Shown: positions 20,800-52,494 of the stretch, one piece after another
How the letters are laid out: every line of letters starts with the position of its first letter
How positions within the stretch are numbered: the stretch's first letter is position 1
Source of the DNA: Lophium mytilinum
Taxonomy: Eukaryota; Ascomycota; Dothideomycetes; Mytilinidiales; Mytilinidiaceae
DNA: 64,000 bases
Direction: 5' to 3'
NCBI GenBank assembly: GCA_010093605.1
Contig: MU004191.1
Span: forward strand, 233,112 to 297,111
Notes under the pieces: generated by a model
What the model was told of the DNA's origin: nothing
Database searches by the model: none
The model's input: the letters and a program-made list of their open reading frames with translations, nothing else
Position numbers and translations under genes: made by a program

Positions 20800-21001
20800 G
20801 ATTTATTGTATTTAAAACGGAGTACATTCCTTGGCGTTTTTCTCTATACACCCCCCCTAATTTTATAAGCGCGTGCCTGGGATTATTAGATAGGTTATAT
20901 ATTAATTTTTAACTACTTTTTAATATACCTATATTAGCTATTAGTAAGGCCTCTTATATATATATTAAAGCTTATATACTAATAATTTCTAGTATTCTAG
21001 T
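20800..21001 (+). repeat. Left terminal inverted repeat
   Basis: It starts GATTTATTGTATTTAAAACG and continues GGAGTACATTCCTTGGCG, a run of seven C, and GGATTATTAGATAGGTTATA, ending near CTAGTATTCTAGT. Compared with the reverse complement of 52292-52494 I count about twelve differences, all C/T or G/A, plus one 1-base indel near the inner end. Similarity stops sharply after 21001. The outer 90 bases keep more GC and CA than the interior. Confidence 0.9.
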
Positions 21002-23043
21002 ACTACTATAATATTCTTAATACAGCGTAATCTTTAATAATAATACCTAACGCTCTAGAGACCTACTAGTAGCTAGAGAAGGTAGAAAAAAAGAAGAAAG
21101 AGAAGAAAGAGAAGAAGTAGGTACTTTTATAGAATTACTTAAAGTTACGCTAAAGAATATATAGACTACTACCTAAAGAGAGAGATATATATACTTTAAT
21201 AATAGCTAAGCTACTATTAAAGCTACTATAAGACTAGGTATAGATCTTTTAGCTAAAATAGTAAAAGAGAGAAAGAATAGACTATAGTATAAGGCTTAGG
21301 CAGCTAAAAAGGCTATACATAAGGCTATAGTAATAGATAGGTAGCGCGCGGTATAAAAAAAGGTAGTATAATAGTAAAAGAAGATAGTATAGTAGTAAGA
21401 AGAAGTAGTATAGAATAAAAAGATCTAGAATAGTTATAACTCTATACTAGGTCTACCGCTATTATTACTACTAGATAGAGATAGAGTACTACCCTTTATA
21501 TTCTCTTCTACTTTTAGTACTCTAGCGCGCTATAAGCGCGTAGTATTAATATTACTACTAATATCTACTAGTTCTCTAGACTATAATATTAACCTATTAT
21601 TCTAGCTATTTATTAATAAGAAGAAGGCGGATAGTAAGGTAGTAGGTATAAGAATATAGTTTAGCCTCTCTAGTAATAATATTAAGCTAGAACTTAATAA
21701 GCTAGTTATAAAGGCATAGGCTAATAGTAACTACTAGGCGGAGTATACTATTACTTTTTATACTATAGTGCTATATACTTTAAATAGTAAAGGCGGTATA
21801 TAAATATATAATATAGATAACTTCTTTATATTCTTTTTTAATAGATTATTTATAGCCCTTAATATAAAGTAGATAGTCTTCTAGAAGAGTACTATAGCGC
21901 TTCTATTTAAATATAAAGTTCTATCTAATCTATCTAGAAAGTTAATTATATTTAAGTTTTTACTAGCTATAGCTATACCTAAGAGTTATAGTAGGAAGCT
22001 ACTATAGTAGTATAAGGCTATAATAAGTAGAATTACTAATATAAGAGACTATAATATAGACCTAATATAGTATTAAAAGTATACTAATAAAGAGTATAGT
22101 AACTTTAATAGCTACTACTTTCTTAATAGTAGTAAGCACTTTATTATACTTACTAAGTAGTAGAAGGTATAGGCTAATACTATAGCGCGCGGTAAGGCTA
22201 CTATATTAGTGCCCCTAATTAAATTATTAAAGAAGCTTTAAATAAATAGGCCTATAGGTTTAGAATATTATTAGCTAGTAAAGATAATAAGAGTATAGTA
22301 GATAGTAAGTACTATAGATAATATTAAGGTAATAATAAAATAGACTATAGAGCTTAGTAGTATATAATAGATAATAGCTATAGCTAAGAGGTTTTTAAGT
22401 ATATAGTAGCCTTTATTATAGCCTTAGTTATAGCCTTAATAGTAGTAGTATAGCTACTATTCTCTCCCTTCTCTACTACTCTATTATCTACTAAATCTAT
22501 ATATTTCTGCTAGGTTTCTAGTATTTCTATATATGCTAGCACCTACGCCTATACCTATGCCTTCCCTTTCTCTACTACTATTACTACTACTTTTAACTTA
22601 GGCCCTAGCTGCTATAGAACCTTACTAACTAAAGAGCTTAAGCCTAGTATACCCTAAAAAGAAGAATATAAATATACTAGAGGCGTTCTTCTATTAGAAA
22701 GTTAATAGTATATAAAATGCTAGTTTATACTAGCACTAGTAGTAGGCGGCCTAGGTAGTAATAAATTAGGCTTAAAATATAGATTTCCTCTATTAGATAA
22801 TAAATAAAAGCTTAAAGGCATATTATAAAACTATATAGCTAGAAATATTAAATAGAATAGCTATAAAGTTTACTAAGAAGCTATATAGGTTTAAGTAGCT
22901 ATACTAGAAGAATAAAGCGGCGTTTAATTTTACTCTACTAGATAATAGGGGGTAGAGTGTATAGTAATAGATATATACTATCTATCTAATATATACTATC
23001 TATAATATATATACTACCTATTAATTAGGGGGTATTTATAGTT
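21002..23043. other. RIP-mutated DNA, former content unassigned
   Basis: AT-rich sequence with CpA/TpG removed. On the plus strand around 21720-22260 a frame with only TAA/TAG interruptions gives a protein-like text (for example KSTIALLFKYKVLSNLSRKL), but I recognise no family. Absence of TGA stops is not evidence here, because RIP removes TG in every frame. Confidence 0.3.
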
Positions 23044-23260
23044 TAAGGCTTAAGTATTAGTAGTAAGAATTCTATTCTAATATTTTGCAGCTTAAGTATT
23101 AGTAGTAAGGATCTTATTTTAATATTTTAAGGCTTAAGTATTAGCGCAGGGTAAATTTCCTCTACGCTAATACTTAAGCCTTAAAATAGAATTCTTACTA
23201 CTAATACTTAAGCTATAAATTATTAAAATAAGATTCTTACTACTAATACTTAAGCCTTAA
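23044..23260. repeat. Palindromic cluster of CTTAAGTATTAG repeats
   Basis: Two arms of about 95-100 bp face each other across a loop of about 20 bases (near 23146-23164). Each arm holds three copies of GGCTTAAGTATTAG, usually extended to TAGTAGTAAG, spaced 35-45 bases apart. The arms pair over most of their length (TAAGGCTTAAGTATTAG at the outer end, CTTAAGTATTAGCG at the loop). Related copies occur at 24524-24575 and 31879-31935. It could be the inverted termini of a small element, or two repeat ends abutting. Confidence 0.75.
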
Positions 23261-24523
23261 GTTAGATACTATATAGAGTATATATAAAACGGGAAGGCTA
23301 TATAGAAATAGAATCTATTACTTTATTATATCTTAGTAAATATAAGTTTAAATTATATAAATAGATAGCTAAATTACGCGTTTAAATATATATATTTACA
23401 TCCGCGTACTAAATATATAGAAATATTAATTAGTAGTAATAAACTTTTAAAGTTATAGTTATAGTTTCTAAGTATATAGTTAAATAGGCTTAATTCTCTA
23501 CTTCTTTCTTTTAGTATAACTAGCTCTAGGCTTTAGAGCCCGCTTAAACGCTACTATATCTTCTATAGTATTAATCTAAGTATAGCGCTTACTTTTAACC
23601 CTATATATACTATATTTACTATCTAGATTATTATTAGTATAGAAATTAATATTATACTAATAATAGCCCCTAGTAGGTATATTCTAGGCGCACTCTAGGT
23701 ATATACTATAGGCTAGGCCCGCCTAATTCTAGCTATATTAGCTATTAATAAGCTTTATATAGGTAAGCTTAGCGCGGTAAAAGTACTTTTAAAGGGCTAT
23801 AGTAATAGTAGAGAAGCTAAAAGTAGTAGTAAGATTATTAGTATACTAAGAAGGAGTTAGTAGGCCTAGAATAATAGTAATAGTAAGAGGAAAGAGTAGA
23901 TAGTAAGCGCAGCGCTTTCTATATAAATAGGTTAGCTAGATTCTTAAGCTACTATACTAGAAATTATATATAGTAGAGGGGGATTAGTTTTTTCTTTTTC
24001 TTTTTTATTTTTATTCTTCTTTTAATTAGGTATATTATAAATATCTCTACTAATAGTAAGAGTAGAAAGAGAGTATATAGGCCTACTATATACTATATAA
24101 AGCCTCTAAGGGCTAGAATTCTTTAAGCTCTTACTAGAGAAAGCTTCTAGCGCCTTATCTTTAGCTTAAACGCCTATTATCTTCTTCTTAGTAAGAAGTA
24201 GCCTAGCTACTACTATCTATATTACTAGAGGATCTAGGTAAACTCTAAGAGGCCTAAAGAGGTATATAGTAAGAGATAGAGAGGGGGAGGGCTCTATAAG
24301 AATATTATTAATTAGGCTATTAATAGAGCTTTAATTACTAGTATTATTAGCTATAGTATTATTAGCTATAGTATTATAAAGATAGTAATTAATAGTATAT
24401 AAAGTCTAAAGAAAAAAGAGAGTTAAGAAAAAAATAAAAATATATAGAAAAATAAATAATAGCTATTAAGCTTTACTATATAACTTTATTCTATATTAAT
24501 ATATAAGCTATAGATTATCTACT

Positions 24524-24575
24524 AGTGCTAATACTTAAGCCTTAAAATATCTACTAGCGCTAATACTTAAGCCTT
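24524..24575. repeat. Two tandem copies of the CTAATACTTAAGCCTTA repeat
   Basis: ATCTACTAG(T/C)GCTAATACTTAAGCC occurs twice in direct order, the same motif as the palindrome at 23044-23260 in inverse orientation. It lies just beyond the 3' end of the Tc1-like transposase remnant, so it may be part of that element's terminus. Confidence 0.6.
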
Positions 24576-24719
24576 AGCCTAAAAAGTATATAAAAAATAG
24601 TAAGGCTATATATAAAGTATATATTAAATAAAAAGGCTATATATAGTATATACTTAGGCCTTAACCTACTTCTCTACCTACTTCTTCTTAATTTAAGTAT
24701 TAGTATTACCTCTTTTATA

Positions 24720-25330
24720 TACATCTAGCTTAGCCTAAATTCTATCTATCTCTTCTCTTATATAGTATACTTCTCTAGCTATATAATAGAACTACTTTTA
24801 AGTAAAGTAATTATACTAGCTCTACTTAATAGTAGCCCTTAGAAAGTTACTAAAGTTATAATAGGCCGGGCGTAGGTAATAGTAATACCTATAGATTTAT
24901 ACCTTTAGCGTAGTAAAGGTTAACTCTATAGGGTTAAAATCTAGTAAGTATAGCGGTAGAAAATATACTAGATATTCTTACGCCTAGATTATATATATAA
25001 GAGCTTTCTTAGTATATATTCTAATATTATCTAGAATAATAATCTTTAAGCGGCCCTTAAACTTACCTTCTATAGCTAGTAGAAAAGTAGTAATAATTTA
25101 GCTTTAGAACTTCTTAGTATTAAAGTAGCCCTCTTATATAGCTATATATAGTAGCTACTCTACTATACTTATTACCGCGTATATACTCTATATATTTCTA
25201 TAATTTATAGGCCTCTAGTAGTATATAGAACTTCTAATAGATATATATATATAATAGCGCTAGCTAGTCTTCTTATTAAATATAGACTTATTAAGAAAGA
25301 TAAGATCTTTTAGCTTATAGTAACTAGTAA
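24720..25330 (-). pseudogene. Tc1/mariner-type DD34E transposase remnant
   Basis: On the minus strand one frame holds all three catalytic positions. A LNKSIFNKKTSQR stretch (family: LDES.NEKTG) has its first Asp at 25290-25292, changed to Asn by G-to-A. The second Asp is in ILDNIRIYTKKALI (25029-25031). The Glu is in LLDFNPIEL (24924-24926). Spacing between second Asp and Glu is exactly 34 residues, and the preceding YFLPLYLLDFNPIE corresponds to the family's YLPPYSPDxNPIE. A tail with QFYYIAREVY follows, near the position of the family's HFRxxGY ending. Stops are TAA/TAG at former Gln/Trp codons. The protein is dead. The N-terminal helix-turn-helix part should lie above 25330 but was not delimited. 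Confidence 0.8.
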
Positions 25331-28300
25331 GCTCTAAGTACTTTAACCTTAACTTCTTACTTACGCAGTTTAACTAGCGCTAGGCCTACTTTTTACTTTA
25401 TCTATTTCTCTTTATTATATATAATATAGTTAGCTATAAAGCTCTAATACTATACTTAAAATTAAGCTATATTTAAATCTTATCTTAATTACGCTAGCTA
25501 TCTTCTAGAAGCTATTAGAGCACCGCCTTTTTATCTACTATAGTAAGTCTTCTTAGCTATTCTATCTTAATTTATAGAGGCCTTATAGGCGCGCTATAAA
25601 GAATTATATATTTTTCTATATTATATACTATCTTCTAGTAAATATAAATAATCTTAGTAATCTATTTAGAATACTTATTAAGCTAGAGAAGCTATATAAT
25701 ATCTAGGCGCTATAAGGCTAATATTAGGAATTTCTAAATTAAGAAACGCGCGGAGAATACTAGTTACTTACGTAACCTTCTAGAAGACTATATATTTTAC
25801 TGCTCTACGGGCTTTACGCTACTCTATAAAAGTTTACCTACTTTTTATATAAAATTTGCGCGCAGGCTGTATAGATAATTCTTAATTATAGATAATCTAG
25901 CATTATAGATAATTATTATAGTTAATAACTACTTTATAGTCCTTATAAATATAGCTATCTACCTCCTCTATCTAACCTTTTAAAACCGCCTAATCCGCCT
26001 AGGTTATAGATAGATAGATAATAACATAGATAGGGCCTTATATACTAAATACATAATTATCGCGTATAGTAGGAAATTTAAAGTTGCACTAGTATATTTA
26101 GTTATCTCTTCTTACTACCTCTACTAGGGCTTTATAGTCTATAGTAACTTTATATATATTATAGACTTTACGCGTTATATAGATAGTAATACCTATATAT
26201 ATTTCTAAGAATTATATAACTATTACTAACCTTAATAATTTTAATATCCTAGTAGACTATTAGAGCTAGCAACGCGTGCACTAGATGTCCGGGCTAGAAA
26301 ATAGCACGTAATATGCACGTTGCGTGTTAGATAGTAGACTATATAGTAATTTAGAATACATCTAATTGCGGTATATATATTATAAAATAGAAAGATAATA
26401 CTAAGTATAAGATAGAGCCTACTTATACTCTATTTACTAATTCTATACTACTATTCCTCGTCCCTAATACTCTTAAGCAACTTAATAACTAGCCGCAGGC
26501 TTTCTTCTCTAGAATCCTGTGCCTTAACGCAGGCAGCTATAAACTTTTAATATTAGTTCTTATTAGACATAATTATAGTATTATTTTTATACTAGCTGTA
26601 TTTATCTTTCTTTATATAGAACTGCTGCCTAAATTATATAAATAAGAGATTAAGAGGGCACTGCTTCTAGTAGTTCTTTATCTTAATACTCTTCTTAGCC
26701 TCTCTATAAATTAGAGCTAAGCGGTATAAGTTATTATTAGTAAGGGGCTCTATATTATTAATCTTATTATTCTATAGTTAATATAATTAGTATATTATAC
26801 TTTAGCTCTCTATCTTATATAATTACCTATACTATCTATAATATCTAATAAAGTATCCCTAAGGGGGGGGCTAAATAGAATTAAATATAGTAAGGATAAG
26901 TACCTAGAGTTAAATAGTTATACTTTGCTCTTAATGCGCTTTATTAGCGCATATATCTTCTCGCGTTAGTTAATAAGGTTCCGCTACTAATCCCGCTTCT
27001 TTACTTCTATTCTCGCCACCCTTATAGTAAAGGCCTGTTATTATTCTAGTATTATATCTTTAGTTAAATCTAATATATTATAGCAGTTAGGGTTATTATA
27101 TATATCCTTATTATTATCTTCTTTATAGTTTATATACTAACCTACCCGTTTTATAATAAATTCTTGCTAGTAGAATAATAGTTAGTGCTTATAGTATAAG
27201 CTAAGTGCCCGCTATTAGGCGAGATATTTATTATAATTTACTACTCTAGCTTATAGTTAGTATAGTCTTATATAAGAGGGGCGGTAGTTAATACTAGTAG
27301 TAGTAACCCCGTAAATTAGGTTTATGCACTTCTAGCCTAAGGTATATTTACTAATAGCGTAGTAGAGGTAAGTATATATATATATAATAGTATTACCTAA
27401 GAGGGGGTTAAAAAACTCTTTTAAGTATCTTTATATCTCTAAGGCGTTTATAGACTATTCTATAAAGAGTAGGTCTATAACTACTACCTAGATAGCCTTA
27501 GCTATAAAGATTACTAGTAGCCCCTATAATCTATTAGAATACTATCTAACGCTAGGTTAGTAACTAACCTTAGCTTAGTCTTTATCTACCCTAAAGAAAT
27601 AGTTCTAATCCTTTATTAGCATTAACGCGGTGCTAGTAATATCTAGAGTTATAGAACTAAGACTATAGCATTCTTATATAATATTATAAGCAACCTTTAT
27701 TATAGCGTTATAGAAATAACTAAAAGCGTTATAAATCTAGGTTATATATTATAATTAGCTATTATATAAGGTTATAGAAGTAGGGAGAGAGTAATATATC
27801 TTCTACATGTAAAAAGAATCTAGAGTAGTAGGAATATTAGCTTAAGTATAGAATAGTTAGTCTTTATAGATATCTACCTATATTTATATTAGTACTTACT
27901 AAAATATATCTAGCCTAATACTCTTAGTCTAGGCTATAAGGTTATTACTATATTTCCTAATTATATTAGTACCTAATACTATACTTCTAAGTATCTAGTA
28001 TCTTATTTATTCTTCTACTACTATATATTTTACCTCTATAGTTAGTACTTTAGTATGCCTATCTATACTATTCTATATTTAAATTATTTTACTGCGTTAT
28101 TTTATACTAAGGGAGCTAATATAGTTATAGATAGGTGTGCCTCTGCCCGTGCCTAAGAAGCGGCTAGTAGAAGAGGAGGATAGTAGACCGCTTAATATAA
28201 AGGTATTAGACCTAGTTATTTAGTTAACGGCCCTGCAGGCTTCTATTCTAGCCGCTATTTTATCTTAGACTACGGCGGCACTCTAATAGGTATTTATTAG

Positions 28301-30444
28301 TATATACTACTTAGTAGAGTGGCCGTAATATATATATAAGCTAATCTTACGCTTAAAGTCTATTTACACGCGGAAGTTAGTATTACTAGATTAGAAGATA
28401 GGCGTATGCCTATTCTTATTCTCTATACCGCATTTTCTCTTTCTAGTAAGAGATAAGGTGCAGCTAGACGGCTAAGATAATATAGTATTACTATCTTAGA
28501 ATATTCTAGTAGTATATTCTCTTTTACTTATTAAGTTCTATATATTTATTATTAGTCGGCAGGCGTTAGAGTTAAGAAAGCTAGGCGCATTACTATATTA
28601 ATTAGTTTTAAGGTAGCACGTTTTTACTTCTTTACTATCTATAGTTATATGCGTTAGCTATATATATATTAATATATACTATAGATAGGGTATATAGTAT
28701 AGTATGTTTAAGTTATATAGTAAGTCCCTATTTAGGGTAGAGAGAGATAGTCCTATATTACCTTTTACTATATTTAAGTAGATAATATTAAGCCTTACTA
28801 AATAATAGATAGAGGGCGTGTAGTAAAAGAATATTCTATTTCTTAAGGTAGAGTGCAAGAATAATAACTATAAAGGGAAGTAAAGTAGATTATAATTAAG
28901 TAGCGTAGAGAGAAGGGAATAAAGGGAAAGTAAGTTGCGCGTTTATTATAATAGAATATAATAGAGCTAGCTAGATATAGTCTATATATATTAACTTAGT
29001 ATCTTTAGCTAGTTATATGCCTCTTCTCTATCCCCCCCTTAATAAAGCCCTATTATTCTATATAATTAAATACTTCCGTCTACGCAATTACCTCTTCTAT
29101 TATATCGCCTTAGACTAGAGCTTATACTTATGTACTTGCGTTAACTTCTACTAATTGCTGCACGCGCGCTACTACCTTCTACTATTATTTCTAGATAGTA
29201 TCTTCTATACTATTAGAATAGTAGTTAGTTAAAAGATTATAGACTTTATATTCTATATTATTAAATAGATAGCTAGCTAAGTTAGAGGCCCTAATAGAGG
29301 TATTAATATTATAATACGCAGCCGTCCCCTTATTACTAACTTTATCCTCGGTTAGGCAACCTACTTAGGCGTAAATAACCTACTAGCTATCTTCTCTAGC
29401 TATAGTATATGTCCCTCTTCTATATTATCTATAATAAACGCCTCTACCTTTACTAACTAAATTACGCAACCTTAAGCTATTATATCCTTCTCTCTCTTAG
29501 CCTAAAACACCCTCTTTACTACTATTTAGGCCTTTTTTCTATAATTCTAGCCCTCTATTAGTTACTATACTATAAGCGGTTATATACTATATTACAGGGT
29601 ACTCCTCTATAGTAGAAAGGTCCCTAGATAGAAAAATAGAAAAATAGTCTACTAGTAGTAAATTCCCCCCCTATAGAATCTATATACCTAGTTAGAATAT
29701 TTAGCTATATAGCTATACTTCTAGTTCTAATAATAGCTATAGTTTAGATAACTCTATACTACCTATATATAGAGATATTAAGCCGTCTATATTCTAGTTT
29801 AGTAAGATAGTATAAGATTATAATAAGGCCCCGCCTTAGAGTAGTATAGTTCTAGTCTAGTTCCCTTAGTAAGGCGGGCTATAGAATAGTCTAATTATAA
29901 ATTAGGTTAGCTAGGTATATAGACTCTTGCGCTATTTAAGTTCTCTACCTTTTATAGTTCTACACTCTTATCTCTTATATAACCCTTATATTCTTTTTAA
30001 CTTTTTCTATAGCTTTAATCTCTTACTTATTTATCTTATTACGCAGGCATTTATAACTAGTAGAGGCTAATATAGATATAGATAGAAGAATAGTATAGTG
30101 CTAGCTAAAGTAGATAGATACAGGGGTATTATTTATCTATATTAGCTATATTAATTAAAATTATCGTATATATCTAATATACTATTTAGCTAAGGCTTAA
30201 TAATTAGGGTAATATAGTCTAGTTCTCTTAATAAACTCTAATATACTATTACTATATACTAGTCTATCTTATTCTTAACTAGAAACTTAAAATTATCTAT
30301 AATATAGTAATATATAGTTTTACATTCTATATTAAGACTAAATATTATATTTAACCTAGTAATAAGTATACTAAATTTAGAGGCTAGTATTACTAGTATA
30401 CTCTTTAGTAGTATAGGTAGTGCAAGTTTATATACTAGTATAAT
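25331..30444. other. RIP-mutated DNA, former content unassigned
   Basis: Continuous RIP signature. On the minus strand around 27400-27760 a frame reads like a helical protein (VSYQPSVRQYSNRLQGLLV), and on the plus strand 28140-28680 another gives LVRDKVQLDGQDNIVLL-like text; neither can be assigned. Around 26258-26345 a short patch retains several CA/TG dinucleotides and an inverted pair, GCAACGCGTGCAC versus ATGCACGTTGCGTG. Confidence 0.3.
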
Positions 30445-31354
30445 NNNNNNNNNNNNNNNNNNNNNNNNNNNNNNNNNNNNNNNNNNNNNNNNNNNNNNNN
30501 NNNNNNNNNNNNNNNNNNNNNNNNNNNNNNNNNNNNNNNNNNNNNNNNNNNNNNNNNNNNNNNNNNNNNNNNNNNNNNNNNNNNNNNNNNNNNNNNNNNN
30601 NNNNNNNNNNNNNNNNNNNNNNNNNNNNNNNNNNNNNNNNNNNNNNNNNNNNNNNNNNNNNNNNNNNNNNNNNNNNNNNNNNNNNNNNNNNNNNNNNNNN
30701 NNNNNNNNNNNNNNNNNNNNNNNNNNNNNNNNNNNNNNNNNNNNNNNNNNNNNNNNNNNNNNNNNNNNNNNNNNNNNNNNNNNNNNNNNNNNNNNNNNNN
30801 NNNNNNNNNNNNNNNNNNNNNNNNNNNNNNNNNNNNNNNNNNNNNNNNNNNNNNNNNNNNNNNNNNNNNNNNNNNNNNNNNNNNNNNNNNNNNNNNNNNN
30901 NNNNNNNNNNNNNNNNNNNNNNNNNNNNNNNNNNNNNNNNNNNNNNNNNNNNNNNNNNNNNNNNNNNNNNNNNNNNNNNNNNNNNNNNNNNNNNNNNNNN
31001 NNNNNNNNNNNNNNNNNNNNNNNNNNNNNNNNNNNNNNNNNNNNNNNNNNNNNNNNNNNNNNNNNNNNNNNNNNNNNNNNNNNNNNNNNNNNNNNNNNNN
31101 NNNNNNNNNNNNNNNNNNNNNNNNNNNNNNNNNNNNNNNNNNNNNNNNNNNNNNNNNNNNNNNNNNNNNNNNNNNNNNNNNNNNNNNNNNNNNNNNNNNN
31201 NNNNNNNNNNNNNNNNNNNNNNNNNNNNNNNNNNNNNNNNNNNNNNNNNNNNNNNNNNNNNNNNNNNNNNNNNNNNNNNNNNNNNNNNNNNNNNNNNNNN
31301 NNNNNNNNNNNNNNNNNNNNNNNNNNNNNNNNNNNNNNNNNNNNNNNNNNNNNN
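30445..31354. other. Assembly gap, 910 N
   Basis: A run of 910 undetermined bases interrupts the AT-rich block. The odd length suggests a size estimated from scaffolding rather than a placeholder. Sequence on both sides has the same RIP signature. Confidence 0.98.
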
Positions 31355-31878
31355 ATTAAGAAGCGTAATAAATATAATAGTATTTTAGAGTATTTTCTAA
31401 ATTAAGTAGAAAGGTTATAAATAGATAGCGTCTAAATTAGCTATAGAGTAGCATATAAATGTATTATACTATCTTAAAACTAACCTAACTTATCTCTATA
31501 TCTAATTAGCTATAGTGTTAGTAGTATATTAAAATATAGGTAGCTAGAAAGGGCTTAGTATTAGTAAGTATATACTTTTCTACCTATTTTCTTTTAGCTA
31601 GTATGTATATATAGCACTAAATTATACTACTATAGACCTATAGTGCACTCTAATTTATAGGCTGCTCTATTTAAATCTCTTTATTAGAAATATAAGTAAG
31701 ATTAGACGCATACTATCTACTAATATTCTGCGGTCTAGATTAGAATAGTAGAATAGAGAGTTCTTGCAACCTTTCTATACCTTATAATATATAAGAATAT
31801 TACTAATAATATATATAGGCCTATAGAGTATTAGCGCTGCTATATAAATATTTACCTATATAATACTATAGTTTATAT

Positions 31879-31935
31879 TACTAATACTTAGGCCTTAAAT
31901 TATATTTAAGGCTTATACTACTAATATCTAAGCCT
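31879..31935. repeat. Inverted pair of the CTAATACTTAAGCC-type repeat
   Basis: CTAATACTTAGGCCTTAAAT is followed directly by ATTTAAGGCTTA and then ACTACTAATATCTAAGCC. These are further copies, in both orientations, of the motif clustered at 23044-23260. Confidence 0.5.
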
Positions 31936-38950: not shown

Positions 38951-41900
38951 AGTAAATATTCTAATCTTAAAAGGCTAAATAGGGGTAATAGATGCCTACG
39001 CCCTTACTATTATTCTAATAACCATGCCCAATGCCACCCGTGCGGTAAAGCTTGCCAAGGCGCTATAAGACTAAGAGCTACTAAAGTAAGTTATAATTAA
39101 GTGCTAATTTAGAATCTCTACTTAGATGCGCCCTAGCCTACCTACTAATATACCGGGTATATAATAGTGCACTTACTCTTATTATTTTAATCTAGATATA
39201 TATAAACTATAAAAGGTAGCCTCTATAAATAAGCCTAAGTACTACTATAACCTTACTATTAAGGGCACTCTTAAGGTTCTTAAGATTCTAGAAGAATACC
39301 TACCGCCCTTATTTAGAGGCTAGATAATTAGGTGTAATACTAACGCGACCGCTAGTAAAGAGCTAGTAGAGGTCCCTATCTTTCTTACTATTATTCTAAC
39401 CTAACTAGCTACCCCTGCTAAGCTAGTAAAACCCTATAAGAGGTTAATATAGAACGCTATTTACTATATAAGGGTCTAAGATAAATATAAGTCTTATATT
39501 AGTCTACCTTAGAATCTATATTCTAAATAGTATATACCTATTATCTTATATATAATCTATAGAGAATTAGCTAATAGAAGTCTAGCCTTATAAATATAGC
39601 TTATATTTATAGTTCTAGTATTTAGATTACTATATACTAATAAGCTATACTAGATTATATTCTATAGCTAAGCGGACTCTCTACTTAATACTGTTTATAC
39701 TAATAAGAAGTTTAAGGCTATAATAATAGATAGTTTTACCTAGATGCACCTAGTTATATCTACGCTAGATACTCTAGAGAAGTTAGCGTCTATAGAAGTA
39801 TAAGCTAGAGAATTTTACAGCCTTAAGTAGCCCCTAAACCTACTATAAACTACACCCCCGCTCCTAGAGTTATAGAAGGCTAAACTTCTTACCTAAACTA
39901 ATCTACTATTTATTAGAATTATAGAGCACCTACTAGTGCCCTAGTATAACTACTATACCTACTCTTCTATTAATACTCTAAGTAAGTATATAGACCTAGA
40001 TTATATTCTTTATTTTAAGATTACTACTTCTAATATAAAGAAGTAAAGTCTAAATAATAAGCACCGGCATGCTACTTAGACGGCATATAAAAATATTGCC
40101 TAGCGTACTATACTAGTTAACTTATTATAGAAATAGGTTAATACCTAGACTTATAAGAAGTTTTATAAGGTATTATATAACGCAGCTGCTAAAATACTTA
40201 TAGTATTATCTATAACGCTAAATATAGTAAATATAATAAATAATATAGTAGAGAGCTTTATAGACGCAACTAAGCCCCTTTATATATATCTAAATTAGTA
40301 CTAGGTTCTAATAATAGAGGATTATATACTACTAGAGAGACTATATACTATTAATATTTCCTACTAAGGCTACTCTAACTAGTTTCTATCCCTGTTTAAG
40401 TTAGTATAGATTATAGTTAAGCGAGTTTATAACTTTAAGATAACTAGTAGACCGGAAGGGCATAGTAAATATAATATTAAGAATATCCTTAGGTACTATA
40501 CTAAGGTACTAGATAAGTTTAAGGCTAGCCGGGCTAAGGCTAGTAATAGTGCAGAGGGGGATAAATAGAACGCTGCTAAAGTCTACTATATTAATAGTCT
40601 AATCTTCTATATAGACTACTATATAGCTAGAGGTTTTACTATATTTATCTAAGAACTAATTACTAATAGTACTATTAACTATTATAAAGTAAGTAGCTAT
40701 TTAGCAGTTAGCTATTACTACTCCGCCTTTAGCTATAATAGAAGTAATAACTTCTACTCTAAGTGCAATACTAGTAAAGATAATAATACTAACTAAGATA
40801 GTACCTATACGCTATACTCGGGCGATAATAAATTAATACGCCGGCGGCTAACTATCTTAGATTGTATCTATAAGGCTATTCTAGACCTTAAGAACTGCGC
40901 TAGACTCCTTAATAGAGATAGTAATAGTAGTAATAACTTAAATGCGTAAGATAATTATAGACTATAGAATCCACGCAAAAATAAGCTTAGCTAGAGAATA
41001 TAGAACTATATAGCTAAAGCGTTAGCTAAAATATAGTAAGTAGTAGAGGGCTACTATAATTAGGAATAATTAATAATAATTAAAAATAATTAGACATTCT
41101 ATAGGCGGCCTAGGTAGACTATAGTATAAGAGTTACTACTAGCACTAGTTATAGGCGCCGGTAACTTAGATAGAAGGTAGCATCCCCGCTACTAATTTAG
41201 AGGTATTAGTAATCTAGAAGTCTTCTATACCTATATACTTAATTTAAAATACTAAGTTATTATTATATTTACTATAGGTTATATATATAAATACTAGATA
41301 GTAATATATATAGCCTATAAGCTAATATCTTTCTAGGGCTAAATATCTACTAGCCTAATTTCTAGCACTATTAATAAGGGCTTAATAATTCTTTAGCTTC
41401 CCTATTAACCCGGTATAGAATAGAGCCTAGAGTTTTACTAGAGTGTTATTATAAAAGTAGCTAAAGAACTTAACCTACTTTTAATGGCGCGGTATAGACT
41501 ATTAAAGAAAGGCTTAAGTACTTTTATAATCTATAAGAAGATAGTCCTCTACTCTTACTACTTACTAGTCCTTATAAGTTATCTACTCTCTATCTACCTT
41601 ATCTTTATTAAGTGTAGTTATTACTAATATATATACCGCTAATTCTACCGCGTATAAGAGGCTTAAGTAGCTAAATTAGTAATATTATAAAACTCTCTAC
41701 CTAACTAGCGCCTTCTAGCTATTATCTAATTTTGCGCCGGCTAAGAGAGACGTAGAGTTTAACCTAGGCTACTTAATGCGCATCTAATATTACTATCTTA
41801 TAGCTATTCTATAACTAATACTTACCCTAGCGGCTATCTTCTTAATAACGCCGGCACTCTTAGTAGATGCCCGTTAACTCTATTCTACTAGACTAGTAAT

Positions 41901-42450
41901 GTATCGCCGCCTAGCGCTCGCCTTATAGAAGGAAGTAACGCGCTTAGACTTAGTATCTTCTTCTATATTACCTAGATAGTACTTACCTAGAGTTAAGAGT
42001 TCTTTACTATAGCTAGTAACTACGGTAGAAAGTTAGATACTAGAAATTAGTAAAAGGTAATACTTACTTTTAATACACGCTATACTATTAGAACTAGGGA
42101 AACTAGATATAACTACTAGTATATACTTAAAACTACGCCTACTATAAAGGTTTATACTAGCTATAAAGAATATAGAAATAATAGAAATAATTATATATAG
42201 GCTTTAGAGTTGCAGTTTAAGAAAGTAAGCTATAGTCTTTAACGCGTAGATATATTAAGGTTCTAGGCTAATAGAATAGCCCGCCCCCTATTAGAATATA
42301 TTACGTGCTATTAAAGAATAATAAGTACTATATACTAGCCTATAATCTAATATAATCTATAATAATTACTTATAATCTATAAGTTTCTATATAGGGCTAA
42401 CTAAATTTAACTAGAAATAGAGTATATACCTTCTACTAAATATAGATACT
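38950..42450 (+). pseudogene. Possible long coding remnant, family unknown
   Basis: A single plus-strand frame from about 39030 to at least 41900 gives protein-like text when TAA/TAG are passed over, for example YYNLTIKGTLKVLKILEEYL and SRPEGHSKYNIKNILRYYTK. It lies immediately upstream of the Plavaka-type transposase on the same strand and may be its partner gene or N-terminal part. I recognise no domain. Because TG is depleted everywhere in the block, long stretches lacking TGA carry little weight, so this is tentative. Confidence 0.3.
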
Positions 42451-43299
42451 ACTATAAGTTATTTTAAATACTTAGTGCCCTAAATAAATATATACTATAC
42501 TATAAAAAGCTTCTTAAAATACTGCAGCAGGTCCCGCTTACTAATACTAGAACTACTAGATCTATAATCTAGTCTTATATACTCTACGTTATTTAGATAA
42601 TAGACGGGATATTATTTAGAACGCCTAGATTACTACTAGTAAGTCTACCTCTACTAGCTAACCTCTATAATAAGATAAAGTATAAGATAAATAGAATAGA
42701 GCTATATATCTCTAGTAAACTAAAAGAGTACTAGAGTCCGCCTTTTATAAATAAAGGCCCTATAAGCTTAATATATAATAACCCGCCGGAGGCTACTAAA
42801 TTCTATATTCCGCACTAATAAGGCTAACTAATAATATTATCTATATTATTGCTATAAGAGGAAGTATATCTCTCTACTAAATTAGGCATGCCTGCAGGGG
42901 CGTCTATTAGATAGGCTAATACTAGATAGTAGATATAAGTATTATTAGAGACCGCTATCCCCCCCGCCTATAAAGGCGGTATTAAAGCTTACTAACTAGT
43001 TACTCTATTATAGGGACTAATCCCCCTTCTATCTATTTTAATTAGCGTTTAACTATACTTTTATATTATAGCTTTAGTAGATTAGCTGCACTAAGAATAA
43101 TATTAACCTGCTATTTAATAATATCTACCTTAAGAGCATATTCTCTAACTTTCTTATATTTACATCGGGCGATTTATAGAATAGTAAACTAGAGAAAATT
43201 AAATATAGCGTTAATAATACTAACTATATAGTAGAGATGCTATATTTCCTAAGTAAAAAATAAAGCTTAAGTAGAGAGTAGTATCTAGTATACTACTTT

Positions 43300-45700
43300 A
43301 ATATAATAGTAGCTATATTATTCCTAATTAGACACCGCCCTTTCTATAATTACCTTATATTTATACTAGTTTAAGTCTATAATATAGAAGGCTAGTAGGT
43401 ATATACTAAGTTATATATATTAGACTAGTAGTAGTAGACTTAGTTAAAGCTTCTAGCGGGGGCTATAGTAATACCTATCTTACTCTCCGTAGATAAGATA
43501 TAGCTTATCTAATATTGCGGCGATAAGAGCGTATAGCTAGTCTATCTAACTATTAGTAACCTAGATAGAACTATATGGCGCTTAAATATATTACCTAGCA
43601 CTCTACTACTAGGCTTTATACTAAGCACGGCGGATAAAGGAGACTATCTAAAGTATTAGCTATACTATAGCTCTTTAGGCTATATTCTTAGATATTAGTA
43701 AAATTCTTACTAATACTAAGTAGTTTTCTAATATAAAATAAGCTATTATAGAATATACTACTAATAGAATTATACTAGAATACAGGGATAGTAAGAATTA
43801 AAGGTGCTATCTAGTATTATACAGAATTATAGCTAATTATAAAGAATAGAGCCTACTTATAGGTATTAAATTTAGAAAACACTATACTATATACTAGGTA
43901 CTATTACATTAATATAAAGACCTAGAGACTAAACATACTATAAGGTCTTACTACTTAACTATTATTTAGATTAAATAGCAACGTAATAATAAAGAGCGTT
44001 TAAAACTTCTACTAAATAAAGTACTATATAATATAGAGGCTATAGAGCTTAATATAGAGTTATATATATATTCTATAAATAACTTTACTTAGAAATACCC
44101 CTATACTAATATCTACTAGATAATAATAATAGATATTCTATACTAACTATTTACGGGCGTTATTTATAACCTTATTAAATAGGTCTAGCTACTAGTAGCG
44201 GAGGTCTACACCCTAGCAATTAGAAGAAAAGATGCCTATATTCTAATAGAAAATAAGAGCGGCTTAACCTAGCTAGATAAGTAATTTAAGGACGTGCTGC
44301 CTTTCCCGGGTCTATCTATATTTAATAAGAAGAATTTTAGTAAACTCTTATAGTATACTAGCTCTAAATAAAAGTCTATAGCCCGCTAGCTTATAGTAGT
44401 AGTAGCACTACTACTAGAAGTAAAGGCGCTAAATACGCTCTAGTTTATCTATGCAATACTTAATTTTACTATTCTAGTATAGTATAAAATATATAATAAG
44501 GCTACGCTAGAGTATATAGAGCTAGCGATAGCTTAAATTAATATATATAAGTTAGAATTTAGGATATTTAGACCTAGAAATAAGAATAGAAACTACGCCT
44601 TCTACTACTTAAAATTCTATATTATATAGTACTACGTTAATTTTATATAGAAATTTAGCGCTATTAATAGCTATAACACTAGCTTAAATAGTAAAGTAAA
44701 ATACTAACACCTAGTTAAATTACAGTATTAGTTAATAAACTATAAGGACTTTCTACCCTAGATCTACTAATTAAACTAGAGACTTATAAATAACTAGGCC
44801 ATAAATAATATACTAAACTACTAATATTACTATCCTTAACTAGCAGCGATAAGAGATATGCTAATGCAATAGATAATAGTATTAGAAAGTATTAACATCT
44901 TAAACTTTAAATAGCCTAGATATAATAATTCCTATAAAGGCTAAATAGTATACTATCTAAAAGTAAGTATTAAGTATATAGCTAATATAAGCTAGAAGCT
45001 AGACTTTATAGCCGCCGCCGCCGTATTTATTTAAGAAGAGAGGCGTAAGATCTAAGGCTAATATACTAAGCCTAGCAGCCTAGATATATTAGACCCTAAT
45101 CTATTCTAGGTTAGCTACCTCTAGCTTAAGTTCTATGCTAGTATTTTATATTAGAAGTAATTAGGTACTAGTAAGAACCTAGAAAGCCTTATAAAAGAAA
45201 ATCTATAGTATAACCCTAAGTAGTAGAACTAAGAATAGTAATATAACTATCTATAGGTATAAGAGTATAGCTTAAACTATACTAAAAATAGAAAGACGCG
45301 CGTTAGTATTACTAATAGAAGGTTAGTAGAGTAGCTATAATTTATAGTAACTATTATAGACTCTATTCTAAAGGGTAAAGATACCCTATAGGCGGTATAC
45401 TCTAGAGTTTTTATTTACCTTCTAGCGCTAATTAATAACGGAAAGCTATATTATATCTATAGCCTAGTAGAGGTAGCTTTTTAGGCTTCTAATAATAGCC
45501 GCCGCTAATAAAAGCTAGAAGTATATTAATTCTATCTACTACTATAAGTCCTCTAAAGTGCACATATTATACTAGCTACCTTTAGCCCGGACTCTACCTG
45601 TTTTTTTATTAATAACTATATTAACTAGAATTAATATAATACACTCTATATAAAAGACTAGAAGATAGAGGTATAAGAGATAATAAGGTAGTACTAGCTT
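43300..45700 (+). pseudogene. Plavaka-type transposase remnant
   Basis: The decoded text matches the conserved core of fungal Plavaka transposases (CACTA-like superfamily). Around 43456 it reads AGAIVIPILLSVDKIQL, corresponding to the family's xVIPVILxSDKTxL. Next come YCGDKS, LVYLTISNLDRTIWR and LLLGFIL, corresponding to SGDKxxWPVYLTIGNLxxxIRR and a TxLIGxxP stretch. At about 44291 it reads DVLPFPGLSIFNKKNF, and at 44432-44530 LQFIYAILNFTILVQYKIY (family: ALLDFIYLAQYxSH). The first and second parts are one base out of frame with each other, so an indel or intron lies between 43700 and 44290. Stops at former Gln/Trp codons make it non-functional. It probably mobilised the whole element or a large part of it; this is inference. 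Confidence 0.75.
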
Positions 45701-48700
45701 AGCAGTTACACTAAAGAGATTAAAGCTACCCTAAGAGTTAAAGACGCAGTAGAGTTTTTAGTAAAGCGCGCAAGGGTAAAAGTACTTACTAACGCCTCTT
45801 TCCTACAACTAAGCCGGTAAATACTAAGAAGTAGTATAGTAAAAAGAAGCTATAGCACTAGCAAGCAACGGCGTAGGTAGAAATAAGGCCGCAAGGAAAG
45901 ATATTCTTAATTTTTCCCTACTATTAAGAGATAATTAAGCATTATTTAGCTTTATTAACCTCTAAGGCTAATTAATATAAGATAATAACTATGTACTTTC
46001 CTATATAATTTCTATAAAACTAGGTAACGCTAGTATACCCCGCTAGCGCTACCTTACTTTACTTTTTAAAATTGCATATTACTACCTTTACCTATTTCCC
46101 TTTACTAATAATAGCCGCCTAATTAAATTTACCGGCTACTTAAACTTACTACCCCCTAATTACTTTCTTTCCTTAATACTTTATAGTAATTAACCCTAAA
46201 TAGCGCCTATAGTAAGCACGTTATCTATACTAGAGGTTCTAGGCTATAGTTAAGTTATAAACCGCTTTCTAGTAGGTTAATACTATAAGATAGAGGTATA
46301 AGGTATAAACCTTAATATACTTAAACTATACTTACCTATTCTAGTCTAGTTAAACGCGGATAAACCTCTCTCTAAACCGGGTTAGAACTATAAGATACCC
46401 TCCGCCTTTACTAGAGCGTATACGTCTAAAGAGGGGGATATCTTCTACCTCTATAACTTTAAGCATGTTAGTAATAATACTCTATATTTTAGCCCTATTA
46501 AACTAACACCTACAAGCTATATAATATTCTAGCTAATAATACTAAGCTAATAGAATAAGTATTTTATTAATTAAAGCTGCACCTATCTATACACAGTTAG
46601 AATGTAATTCTCTTATAGCCCTACGCTATAAGATATAATACTAAGATAAATTATCTAGAAAAGTTAGTAAGCATTAGCCTACTTAAAGAGGTAAGTAAGT
46701 ACTCCCTCTTCTATAGATACCTGCTAATATAATATCCCTTTTCTAGCTATTTAGGTAATACTATTAAGACTCTATTATTTATAATACTTATATATATATA
46801 TTACCGGGTAAAATACTAATCTTTACTCTTCTAAAATTCTTTTATATATACAGTTACGTCTACTATATAGACCTAAATACTAATAAATACTTTAGCCTAT
46901 AACTATTATCTCCTACTATAATATATATAGATTGCGGATCCGCTAGCCTTATAGATAAGTGCACCAGTCTAGACCCGCTCTAACTAAACGCAGCTAACTA
47001 GTTAATAATACTTTAAAACCTCTTAAGTAATATCTATATATAATATATTATTAACTATAAATAATAGTTAGACTATAATCTACTAAAGCCTTTTAATCTA
47101 GAGGACTTTTAGCACTTAGTTAATCTATATATAATAGAACTTACTAACTATAGAACTAATTTAAAGATAAGTAAAGCGTTTAAGTTAGAATTTAAGCCTA
47201 ATATAGATAATATAGAGAAGAAGAATATAGAGATAGAGATAGGCAAGATAGGTAATATTAAAGTAGAGATAGAGGCAGATAATATAGAGATAGAGGATAG
47301 CGGGTAGAAGGCTTCTCTTAAGCGTGCTTAAGTTATATAGTAGGTAGTATATATAGTTAGTCTAGACCCCTAAATATAGTAGTTTATTCTATAATAGCGT
47401 CTATATTTAAGTATAAGGTATAATAGGGTTTTAAAAATATTAATATATAAGTTAATTACTAGCAATTTAATTTTTCTTACTACCTATACGCTTAACCCTT
47501 CTCTTTTATAGATTATTAATTATAATTAGAGATTATATATATCTCCCTTTTATAATTAGAGTTAGCCCGCTACTTATATTATCTTACCCGTCTTAATTCT
47601 ATTATACTCCTTCTTATTAAGCAGGGCTACTACTTATTTAAATACCGCGCAGGTATATATAAGTTAGTTACACTAGTTAAGATTTACGCCCTATAAACTA
47701 TTTAAAGTAATACCTAGGGTAGCTAATATTAGGGGCTACATTTCTAATAATATTAAGAGGTATTCTATTAGTAGACCTACTACCCTATCTAATAGACCTA
47801 AATTCTTTCTCTAATTCTAAAGTAGCATATATTATTCTTTATCTTTAGGCCCTAACGCTAGAAGACTGCTCTTTATAGAGCCCGGTATTACCCGCAGCTT
47901 CTACTCTATTACCTCTAACACTTAATATAATTAATTATAATTAGAGATTATTACCCTCTCGCAATAGTATAAAGTCTACCTTAACTATCTAACTTCTTAG
48001 GCTACGTAGCATTATCTATTACCTAAGCTAAGGCTATAAACCTACTTTACCTAGTAGACGCGCATTATATTATAGCTAGTAAAGACCTTTACCTTCTCTA
48101 CTAATAACTAAGCAGGCTAGTAAGTAAAATTTAACTCTAACCTTACTCTTATATATAAGCCTTACTATACTCTTTCTTACTATATTACTAATAGCTTAAT
48201 AGCCTAAGTTACTATAACCCCGCTACTATAATAGAGTAGATAGCAGTCTACTAGAATAGACTAGTAGACCTTACTATTACTATCTATATTAATAGCTATA
48301 TAGACTACTTTAAAGCGCTATATACTATATATAGTAGAGATAATCTAGAGAAAGCTACTATATTTCTCTAGCGCCCTTAGAAAGATATTATAGACTTTAA
48401 GATTAAATATAACGCACTTATCTAGTCTATATATAAGTATTTACTATACCTAGTTCTAAGTTAAGAATTAAATAATATAAAGGGCGGCTAGTCTAATAAG
48501 CTAGAGATAAAAACTATGCCGGAGGTAGTAAAGAAGGCCTATAGAAAGGGCTCTAAAAGCTTCTTTATTAAGAATTAGGCCTATATAAATCTATCTACTA
48601 CTTCCCCACCTATATCTACTAACTATTTACTAGTATAAGAAGCTTATAGTACCTATAGTTCTAGATAAGAGCGGCTTTAAATACTCTAGAGGTAAAGAAG

Positions 48701-51700
48701 GTATAGTAGTATAGCTGCGTAAGGGCTATAGACTCTAAGTTAATATATCTATAAATACGCTTAATATTACTAGTAGTATAGCACTAATTATATATATAAG
48801 CTATACTTTAATACCTACCCTACTAAGTATATTCTAATCTATACTTATTAATATAGATGTTAGAAAGACCTTCTACTACTACTAAGACCTAAAATATACG
48901 CCGCTGCTATATATAAGAAGATTATATATTTACTAACCTGCATTTAGTTCTCTTACTAATGCGTGCCTACTTTATTAACTCTAAAGATAGTTCTATATTT
49001 AAAGTTAGCCTTATAAACCTAATATTATTCTACTTAAATTACGCCGCCTTAGGTAAGGCTATTAGCTACTATGCAGCTACATCTAGGGAGAAAGGGGAGA
49101 AAGATAACTATAACCTCTAACTAGAAGTCTAAATTTATACTAAGCACATCCTTATAGTTAAGCTGTAGATCTTAATATTCTAGAAGACTAGAAGCGTATA
49201 AGCGGCGCTATTATTACTAGAGACCTATATCTTTATAGATAAGCTATAGACCTTAATACGCTAGAAGACTAGAGGTATATAAGAGGCGCTATTATTGCCG
49301 GAGACCTTAGTAATAGCTAAGGCTAAAGAGAAGAACTTAGAAATAGTAGTATTAGAATAAGAGACTTAAGATGCAACCTTAAAGAATAAATATAAAGCAC
49401 TATCTAATAAACTAGAGCCTATAGATCTTATAGAAGATAAAGATAAATTAGATATATACTACTTTAATAATAGAAAAAACTAGGTAGAGAAAGTTAACTA
49501 GAATAAAGAAAATACTATAAAGAAGGTATTATTTATAGGAGACCTAGATAGCTTAGAGGTAGCGGAGGCGGCCTTATATAAGGCTAAAATAGGCCTAATT
49601 ATAGCTTAGACTAGCATTAAGAAGGCCTTAGAAATTATGCGTACTTACATAGTAAGGGATAAAGAGAAGAATACTAACTCTACTATCTTTTACTTCTCTA
49701 ATATTATCTAAGAGACGCCTAAAAGTAGATATAGAAGGCGTATATACTTAGTATAGTAAGTACCTTCTTAAGAAATTACTAATTTTCTAGTATATATATA
49801 GGTAGAAAGCGGCCTTAAATAGAACTATATAAGTCTACCTATATATACTTTCTATATACCTTCTATACTCTTACACTGCTACTAAGTTAACTTTTAATAA
49901 ATGTATAGCATGTATATATACCTTATATCTTAAAGCCTACCTCCGCCCTAAGCTCTAACTTAGAAACTACTTATCTACCTACTTCTAATATAAACCCCCT
50001 AAACTACACGCGCTTAAAAATACTACTAGTCTTATAATACCTATTTAGAGATATTCTATAGTTATAATACCTAGCGCGTTAAGCTATAATATAAGGGATT
50101 AAACCTAAGGCTAATTAAGAATAACTATTAGTAATAATAGCGCACTACTATAAAGACGCACTTATATAAGATTCTAATAGTATACTTAAGAAAAAAGTAT
50201 ATAGTAACTATTAGTTAAAATACATGCGCCTAAGTTTTAAATTTCTAGCGCCTGCCCGCATATATAATAGAACTATTCTCCTCTATTCTATAGATATAAA
50301 AGCCTGCCCTATATCTCTTTCTCTATACTATAGAGTAGTAGAAGGTAGTAAGAGTTAAAAAGGTAGAAGAGTTATAGTAGAGATTAACTTAAGGCTAACT
50401 ATTTAAAATATAGCGGGTATTAAAATTATATATACTAATAAATTATAGTAGAGGCTAAAGCTAGTAGAAACTTATTTAAGAAGCTAGAATATAGAGAATA
50501 AGAGGCAGTACGTAGGTATAGCTTACTAATAGTATCTACTATAATAGAAAGCTAATAGCGCACTAATATTTAGGTTAGTAGTTAAACTAGCATAGTTCTA
50601 TAGAGCTATATTAGGTAAAGATAATATACTCTAGTATTACTAGCTTATATTATCTACTAAGCTTCTCTATCTCTTCTACTCTACTCTATAAGCTTTTTTA
50701 TCTACTAGGTTTCTCTATTCCTCCCGCTCTACTCTATAGAATTTTTTTTCTACTAAGTTTCTCTATCCCTCCCGCTCTACTCTATATAATAGCGCCTTAG
50801 TTCTAGTATAATCTTTTATATACATAGCTCTTAATCTTCCTAACTACTATATATAACTATATATCTATATTCCCTACTAGCTTTTAACTCTACCCTAACT
50901 ACTACTTCTCTAGCCCTACTTTCCTTAGAAAATAAGCGGGCGGATAGAATATATACTCTATTACTAGTGCTAGATATACTTTAATCTAGTATTATAGGGA
51001 CAACCTAGCCCTTATATATACTAGTAATAGATAACTATCTACTATATAATAATGCAGTAGAGAGAGGGAAAATAAAGCTACCTCTACTCTAATATCTCTA
51101 ACTCTTCTTATAGTACTATATAAGATTATTTAGGATTATATAAAATTATCTATAATTATTATAGCGTGCCCTCTATATTTTTACATTCTAAAAGAGACTC
51201 TAGCCTATTTCTTTAAGTATATTTTAGGTTCTATAACTGCCCTGCTAGATAGAGAGTATATATTTTTATTACCTTTTAGCGCATAAGTATACTATAGGCT
51301 AGGTTATAAAATAATAGTATCCTAACTTCTAAGGTTAGAAGTATAATAGGAGAGACTATAAATAGAGGAGCGGTAACCTAAAATATAGATAGAAGAAGTA
51401 AAGTATACTAATATAGAGAGAAATAAGAGATATAGAAGAAGTAAATAGAAAGAAGGGGCTATAGAGGTAGTAGCATTATAGCTATAATACTAGAGGCTAT
51501 TCTATAATATAAATATAAGAGACTACTGCTAGAGCTTATATTAGTAGTAGAATAGTTATATACTTTTTATTATTTATAGATAGTTATATACCGCGGCCTA
51601 ACTCTTAAATAATAGGTCTTAGTAGTAATATAGTAAGAGTCTACCTAAGAATATATTAAGTATCCTAATTATAATTTATAAGCCGGACCTAGCGCTAAAT

Positions 51701-52291
51701 TATAGAATAGATAGATTATATCTTTTCTACCTATTCTCTATGCATTTATTAAATCTACTTTTTAACTACTACAGCCCTAACTTTACTATACTAACTATTT
51801 ATAGAATAAAGATTAAACGTTCTAGCCTAAGTACTTACTATTTCTACTTACTTCTACCCCCGCCTTATACTACTATAGAGAGGAAAGAGCGGTAAATAGA
51901 ATTATTTTATAGTAGGATGTAGGTAGTATTATATATGGGGCATGTATATATTAGCTCTAGCACTACTAAGGCTAATTAGGTAAAAGATACTATAGAACTA
52001 AATTATTAATAGTTTAAAATAATAGATAATAATTAAGTATTATTAGACTATATAGTATATAGGTAAACTACTACTAGTCTATATAGTAATATTACCTGCG
52101 CTAGTAGTTTATATAGATATTATATAATTTATATAGTTTACTAGAAGTTTACGCCGTTCGCTACTAAGTACTAATAGCCCTAACTTTTGCAGTTTTAGGT
52201 TTTTCTAATAAATATTAGGGTTTAATTCTAGAGTTAGGTTTACATGCTAGTAGAGAGGAGGATTTAACTATAGATTAAGTTATTAACTTAC
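45701..52291. other. RIP-mutated DNA, former content mostly unassigned
   Basis: Continuous RIP signature. On the plus strand at 47220-47310 there is an acidic repetitive stretch (DNIEKKNIEIEIGK) that looks like former coding sequence. A tandem duplication at 49160-49310 is listed separately. CT-rich simple sequence occurs at 50650-50800. No family was recognised. Confidence 0.3.
49160..49310 (+). repeat. 81-bp tandem duplication inside a former coding stretch
   Basis: Two copies begin AAGCTGTAGATCTTAATA (49160) and AAGCTATAGACCTTAATA (49241) and both continue CTAGAAGACTAGA, then GGCGCTATTATT and GAGACCT. The 81-base offset is 27 codons, and differences include several C/T and G/A changes. 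The unit reads roughly KLQTLIRQKTRGIQEALLL after passing over stops, so it was probably a repeat within a protein. Confidence 0.6.
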
Positions 52292-52494
52292 ACTAGAAAT
52301 ACTAAAAATTATTAGTATATAAGCTTTAATATATATATAAAAGGCCTTACTAATAGCTAATATAGGTATATTAAAAAGTAGTTAAAAATTAATATATAAC
52401 CTATCTAATAATCCTAGGCGCGCGCTTACAAAATTAGGGGGGGTGCACGGAGAAAAACGCTAAGGAATGTACTCCGTTTTGAATACGACAAATC
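52292..52494 (-). repeat. Right terminal inverted repeat
   Basis: Reverse complement partner of 20800-21001. Its outer end reads GGAATGTACTCCGTTTTG, then AATACGACAAATC, and it contains a run of seven G preceding TGCACGGAGAAAAACGC. It retains more CA/CG than the left copy (GTCGTATTC versus TTGTATTT in the same orientation), so it is the less RIP-mutated end. Confidence 0.9.

Follow-up and report, generated by a model that had tools for sequence, protein, structure and literature searches.

The window analysed here, a 64,000-nucleotide stretch of the Lophium mytilinum genome, contains an AT-rich block that we read as two nested DNA transposons. A 26.5-kb Plavaka-type element lies inside a 5.2-kb element, and both were later mutated by RIP; we put the probability of this reading at roughly 90%. 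The borders, the duplicated targets, the size of the moving unit, the family of the transposase and the RIP pattern are all observations and are described below.

The block is delimited by a pair of inverted repeats. When the window was compared with itself by blastn, positions 20800-21001 aligned with 52494-52292 at 93.6% identity over 203 columns (12 mismatches, 1 gap, E 4.6e-82), and a repeat scan of the window recovered the same pair (94% over 197 bp). A MAFFT alignment that included a few extra bases counted 14 transitions, no transversions and one 1-base indel. Such a pair is far beyond chance. The GC content drops from ~0.5 to ~0.28 near 20.8 kb and recovers near 52.5 kb, while the TA/AT ratio stays at 1.55-2.21 in every 1-kb window between 21001 and 52000. 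It is thus confirmed that the block between the 202-bp repeats is AT-rich and RIP-mutated. The initial annotation had described inverted repeats of about 202 bp at the borders of an AT-rich block, differing by about twelve transitions and one 1-base indel but by no transversion; blastn, the repeat scan and the GC shift bear out the borders, and the blastn and MAFFT counts bear out the differences. Since the copies vary at the outermost base of the repeat, we place the conserved ends of the outer element at 20801 and 52493.

The inner giant element occupies positions 25722..52210 (forward strand), which is 26,489 bp as assembled and ~26,650 bp once a run of 910 N at 30445-31354 is corrected. 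In four other copies 1,071 bp separate the flanks of this gap, and the C12, C13 and C7 copies contain no N. The left terminus, TATTAGGAA (25722..25730, forward strand), forms an imperfect inverted repeat with the right terminus (52202..52210, reverse strand), which ends in CTAATA. In the least mutated copy seen, at C12:209906, the left terminus reads CATTAGGAA. End alignments and an empty site place a 2-bp target-site duplication, AA, at 25720..25721 and 52211..52212 (both forward strand).

To find further ends, the host's own assembly (43.18 Mb in 24 contigs) was searched with both halves of the insert, with segments 38950-43500 and 43400-47500 and with the right end; one of the insert-half searches scored 16 of 25 candidates. 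This yielded at least 16 left and at least 15 right ends, the window included. Every one of the 16 left ends reads (C/T)ATTAG(G/A) followed by AATTT, with C as the first base only at C12:209906, and every one of the 15 right ends reads CTAATA. The inner ends are therefore short imperfect inverted repeats. In the window, the two match at 13 of their first 20 positions, a level that 533 of 200,000 random block pairs reach.

Five copies are contiguous, each ~26.6 kb long: the window (corrected for the N gap), C13:1241622-1214973, C7:2186485-2213101, C12:209906-236510 and C12:1384403-1357799. The 2-bp flanks are equal in all five (AA, TA, CT, AG and AA) and in six of the eight candidate end pairs. 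At this composition two bases would agree by chance with a probability of 0.106 per pair, which gives 1.3e-5 for five out of five and 3.3e-5 for at least six out of eight. The sixth agreeing pair, C5:125515-174063, has AA flanks and spans 48.5 kb; it is presumed to be one interrupted copy. In the two disagreeing pairs, C7:1090922/1128476 and C11:366113/328078, the ends lie ~38 kb apart and may belong to different copies.

A 9-bp (Mutator-like) duplication at the inner ends was also considered and rejected, as the end alignments assign ATTAGG to the element end and leave just 2 bp duplicated. The window appears to have the 9-bp duplication AATATTAGG because the target itself reads AATATTAGG.

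Full-length alignment covered four of the five contiguous copies (window, 26,489 bp with 910 N; C12, 26,605 bp; C13, 26,650 bp; C7, 26,617 bp), and the fifth was characterised by its search matches, ends and length. Over 25,531-26,605 columns, transversions number only 13-24 per pair of aligned copies, while transitions number 1653-3004. Apart from the N gap, the alignment has indels of 15, 45 and 48 bp. So few transversions and indels mean that RIP acted on copies that still differed very little along their full 26.6 kb. Among the C/G sites of the C12 copy, those changed in the window amount to 77% for CA, 53% for CG, 13% for CC and 3% for CT. This CpA-type pattern suggests a filamentous ascomycete as host, as does a host ISWI protein whose score with PDB 5jxr, from Myceliophthora thermophila, exceeds that with yeast ISW1 (1182.7 against 1132.9 bits). 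The 26.6 kb moved as a single unit shortly before RIP. Additionally, the family provides a paralogous empty site of its own: the copy at C12:1384403-1357799 sits inside another copy of the same family with AA duplicated, and the uninterrupted counterpart of its target, at 41820-41870 in the window, has a single AA.

These comparisons also bear on the possibility that the inner 26.5 kb represents an ancient nest that accumulated once and was later copied as a block by segmental duplication. A length of 26 kb is not accounted for by any single gene, and we know of no report of DUF6532 or helicase-like genes as regular parts of Plavaka elements, which we counted in favour of a nest. Some duplication does occur, as the right ends at C15:1012143 and C12:1344096 share the same flank and are for that reason not independent. 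However, all five contiguous copies have different surroundings, exact ends and 2-bp duplications, and the internal repeats found by the self-comparison and the repeat scan of the window are short ones only. We consider such a history improbable.

The 202-bp repeat, in turn, belongs to a smaller element. It has 21 matches in the genome: five weaker ones (74-86%) and 16 near-full-length ones, which form eight inverted pairs, the window's included. One 5.2-kb content is common to all eight pairs, with ~86-97% identity in pieces longer than 1 kb. Plain copies span 5,250 bp (C3b), 5,257 bp (C4) and 5,287 bp (C2), and a further copy of 5,544 bp (C3a) carries a 259-bp internal duplication. In the other four pairs, spanning 12,552 bp (C17), 24,817 bp (C6), 29,749 bp (C7) and 31,695 bp (window), unrelated insertions split this content, each time at a different point. 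The C17, C6 and C7 insertions carry direct repeats of 238 or 201 bp at their ends, are partly alike and look like LTR retrotransposons; the 26.5-kb insert of the window matches none of them over 150 bp or more.

In the window, genome comparison places most of the outer 5.2-kb transposon at 20800..25721, in reverse orientation relative to the C2 copy and with one terminal inverted repeat at 20800-21001. This part is 89.8-91.6% identical to the plain copies C2, C3b and C4 over ~5.0 kb. The remainder, in the same orientation, lies at 52213..52494 with the second repeat at 52292-52494 (blastn and copy alignment). When the two outer halves are joined without 25722-52210 and one AA, the result is 5,204 bp long and aligns to the four plain copies with no gap at the junction.

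The initial annotation had taken the 202-bp repeats for the ends of one 31.7-kb element, and in the window the pair does delimit the block exactly. Across the genome, the eight pairs show instead that these repeats end a 5.2-kb element. Four of them hold just 5.2-5.5 kb of the same content, the remaining four hold that content broken at four different points, and ends of the inner 26.5-kb insert occur at many genome sites outside the other seven pairs. The distances between inverted pairs, which the annotation had proposed to list, range from 5.25 to 31.7 kb. Moreover, the pairs bracket mutually unrelated contents, which the annotation itself had named as an outcome that would speak against it. 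A single transposon of 31.7 kb is thus very hard to maintain. What stands is that a giant DNA transposon is present and encodes a Plavaka transposase, but it is the 26.5-kb inner insert, with short ends and a 2-bp duplication of its own.

As for the class of the outer element, its C2 copy gave a match to DDE_3 (PF13358; E 5.3e-5) of 23.6 bits, below the 28.6-bit cut-off, in a scan of five of the six readings of this one RIP-mutated copy. Tc1/mariner-like elements duplicate a TA target. At the outer element no TA duplication was found: AT is present at all 16 ends, with no longer duplication.

The inner element encodes a stop-ridden Plavaka transposase (PF18759) in two frames at 43252..44167 on the forward strand. 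The better frame scored E 3.7e-9 and 36.7 bits against a cut-off of 26.3, and the second E 8.3e-4 and 19.1 bits. When the six frames of the window's inner element were scanned against Pfam (12 readings, E up to 1), Plavaka was found in two readings and nothing else was matched. In a PF18759 search of the genome the window reached 42.9 bits and the C12 copy 61.2 bits. All 12 matches of this search exceed the cut-off (37-61 bits); they lie at 10 places, all contain stops, and every one overlaps a stretch matched by the inner-element repeat. In the window this match is incomplete and divided between the two frames.

Plavaka elements, of the CMCT/CACTA clade, are recognised by a PF18759 match above the curated cut-off and a duplication of 2-3 bp, and the inner element has both, with a 2-bp duplication. 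CA is present at one of the 16 left ends, and TA at the other 15 and at all 15 right ends. Because RIP turns CA into TA, the original termini may have been of the CA..TG kind. DDE residues with C(2)C and H(3-4)H motifs are a further mark of the clade; the transposase readings carry too many mutations for these to be scored one by one. The PlavakaB-type CATCA occurs at no inner end, the nearest being CATTAGG, which is derivable from it by RIP at the inner CA. A search for TET/JBP gave no match, and the controls were equally silent. The best reading of the inner element is that of a giant Plavaka-type (CACTA-related) cut-and-paste element wrecked by RIP. A Starship-like element, with a tyrosine recombinase, a TATTAGG target and 9-bp direct repeats, would fit the size and the AATATTAGG on both sides in the window, but none of the 14 other right flanks starts with ATTAGG or AATATTAGG and the end motif is inverted at both ends, which leaves this option with next to no probability. 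Its captain (DUF3435) was absent from the Pfam matches of the window (12 readings) and of the C12 copy (27 readings), and DUF3435 had no match in the genome, although 14 control genomes were silent too.

Besides the transposase, the element carries a DUF6532 region. Pfam scans of the C12 copy covered 27 readings, not every frame, and found Plavaka in one and DUF6532 (PF20149) in two, with E 1e-8 and 1.9e-9. The genome search with PF20149 gave a single match, at C12:211507-211929 (E 2.0e-8). By comparison with the C12 copy, the equivalent position in the window is 27323..27745 on the reverse strand, where the window's own copy is without a score. All other matches in the 27 readings were below the cut-off: MTES_1575 (0.032), HDA2-3 (0.04), OstA_2 (0.077), SPC12 (0.36), AAA_lid_TANC1 (1.3) and Rv2466c-like (4.4). 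HDA2-3 we take to be SNF2-like in fold.

A second candidate for cargo is a reading of 931 codons with many stops at 31861..34653 (reverse strand), which recurs in other copies and which hhalign marks as helicase-like, perhaps of SNF2 type. An hhalign comparison with 13 host SNF2 proteins gave P 3.3e-4 over 70 N-terminal columns. A local rerun with a profile of 15 sequences gave 2.6e-4. The best of 60 shuffles reached 0.042, and the best reading of the element that does not overlap this one, among 114 listed matches, reached 0.023. In an SNF2-like helicase, the features expected to align with SNF2 profiles are the N-terminal Q motif and Walker A. In contrast, the SNF2-rel_dom profile (PF00176) had 42 matches in the genome, all of them outside the inner element of the window and outside the other contiguous copies. 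An hmmsearch run that used 15 host SNF2 proteins as its profile reached at best E 0.49, outside the motif I region. Support for an SNF2 reading is therefore mixed: the hmmsearch failure counts against it, and hhalign provides its sole statistical support.

In a PDB search with this reading and with the one at 38.6-43.0 kb, just antibody or nanobody matches appeared, with E 0.09 or worse. The genome search with the helicase-like reading returned 11 matches. All contain stops, one is weak (35.7 bits), and none is an open relative in the host. We take 31861..34653 to be a helicase-like gene, which may be of SNF2 type. The SNF2 cargo that had been proposed for the block thus lacks a Pfam SNF2 match and a significant hmmsearch match, while its profile-profile match beats the shuffles. 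According to the accessible text of one report, Plavaka, KDZ and DUF6532 occur among the additional domains of two Ganoderma species (PMC8955403).

The history that we propose would start with the insertion of the 5.2-kb element with its 202-bp inverted repeats. The 26.6-kb Plavaka-type element would then have entered it by cut-and-paste, duplicating AA; we infer this mode of movement from the transposase family and the target duplications. The Plavaka transposase would act on the short ends (C/T)ATTAGG...CTAATA and carry the 26.6 kb as one block, with the transposase and several genes, including those for the DUF6532 protein and the helicase-like protein. Once the element had spread, RIP, changing C to T chiefly at CpA and CpG, mutated the copies and filled their readings with stops. 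We also infer that the cargo serves the element. As a guess, a chromatin remodeller among the cargo would help the element to act in silenced chromatin.

Starships are giant gene carriers of filamentous fungi, as is the inner element, but they are moved by a tyrosine recombinase and not by a DDE enzyme. In the literature on Plavaka, CACTA/EnSpm, Starships and cargo, as far as its accessible text goes, we found no report of a comparable element in an ascomycete. The following comparisons have the same scope.

Plavaka families have been reported from Agaricomycotina, where PlavakaA has a 2-bp duplication and TGT..ACA ends and PlavakaB duplications of 2 or 3 bp and CATCA..TGATG ends (PMC12730594), and Plavaka is also mentioned for the mushroom Marasmius oreades (PMC8290104, PMC9674265). 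The inner element shares with PlavakaA/B the transposase family, the 2-bp duplication and termini compatible with the CA..TG kind. It differs from them in its terminus, which the least mutated copy shows as CATTAGG on one side, and in its 26.6-kb size, and it places Plavaka in a genome with strong CpA RIP.

In Amoebidium, Plavaka-flanked clusters of up to 50 kb are known, but these giant repeats are tandem clusters of intron-poor genes with many tyrosine recombinases and are delimited by methylation (PMC11244446). The inner element has sharper, defined ends, target duplications and a fixed content, and the Pfam scans made found no recombinase in it. The enlarged En/Spm elements of Chondrus crispus, 16-20 kb long with 4-5 ORFs, are CACTA-related as well (cited in PMC6431247); they come from a red alga and are smaller than the 26.6-kb DDE unit described here.

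A parallel in size is X3X3R8 of Stagonospora nodorum, a 26-kb RIP-degraded repeat with Rad5/SNF2-like helicases that was read as a duplicated endogenous gene cluster (PMC3017866). Like the inner element, it is ~26 kb long, RIP-degraded and multi-copy and contains helicase genes. X3X3R8 differs by two features that were not seen in the inner element, an internal tandem repeat of X3 and a ubiquitin-conjugating enzyme. The comparison covers gene content, size and RIP, as ends and target duplications are not part of the accessible description of X3X3R8 (PMC3017866).

In general, transition and transversion counts together with paralogous empty sites can separate a giant element from a nest in DNA ruined by RIP. 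The finding suggests that Starships need not be the sole large gene carriers in such fungi. More speculatively, filamentous ascomycetes might harbour a parallel lineage of giant (>25 kb) cargo-carrying DDE elements moved by Plavaka transposases, with the helicase-like and DUF6532 genes as standing parts, and 26-kb families of the X3X3R8 kind may belong to it; we regard this broader proposal as tentative and, for now, rather doubtful.

Outside the window, the outer element, a 5.2-kb DNA transposon whose terminal repeats occupy 20800-21001 and 52292-52494 of the window, has other copies on contigs C2, C3, C4, C6, C7 and C17. Its conserved termini are ATTTGTCG...CGACAAAT, and the left end of the window copy reads ATTTATTG. 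In 8 out of 8 copies no matching target duplication was found at the flanks, save a possible AT, which is unusual for the DDE_3 (Tc1-like) identity suggested for this element by a below-cut-off match.

Besides the window copy, three others (C17:514145-526696, C6:1212279-1237095 and C7:1416044-1445792) are broken up by sequences with direct terminal repeats of 201 or 238 bp. Judging from these repeats, the insertions, some of which are nested, appear to be LTR-like. An inverted pair of weaker (78%) copies of the 202-bp repeat, spaced by only ~0.5 kb, lies at C4:1345274-1345786 and is perhaps a short deletion derivative.

Apart from the main block, a patch at 3000-5000 of the window reaches a TA/AT value of 1.61; several direct repeats of 52-591 bp, 73-85% alike, lie there, and a ~113-bp direct repeat (85% identity) is found at 56728-56990. 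Within the ~26.6-kb inner, Plavaka-type element, a TCTTTC-rich, low-complexity stretch (34800-35260) lies upstream of the helicase-like reading; its minus-strand reading is a charged, coiled-coil-like repeat.

Inner-element fragments at C9:1994599-1995142, C24:327654-332366 and C7:2237039-2237134 run to within 10 bases of contig ends, which probably reflects assembly breaks at this repeat. The complete inner-element copy at C12:1357799-1384403 sits within a second copy of the same family. Two right ends of the inner element on separate contigs, C15:1012143 and C12:1344096, share identical flanking sequence, and this common flank points to a duplication of the site.
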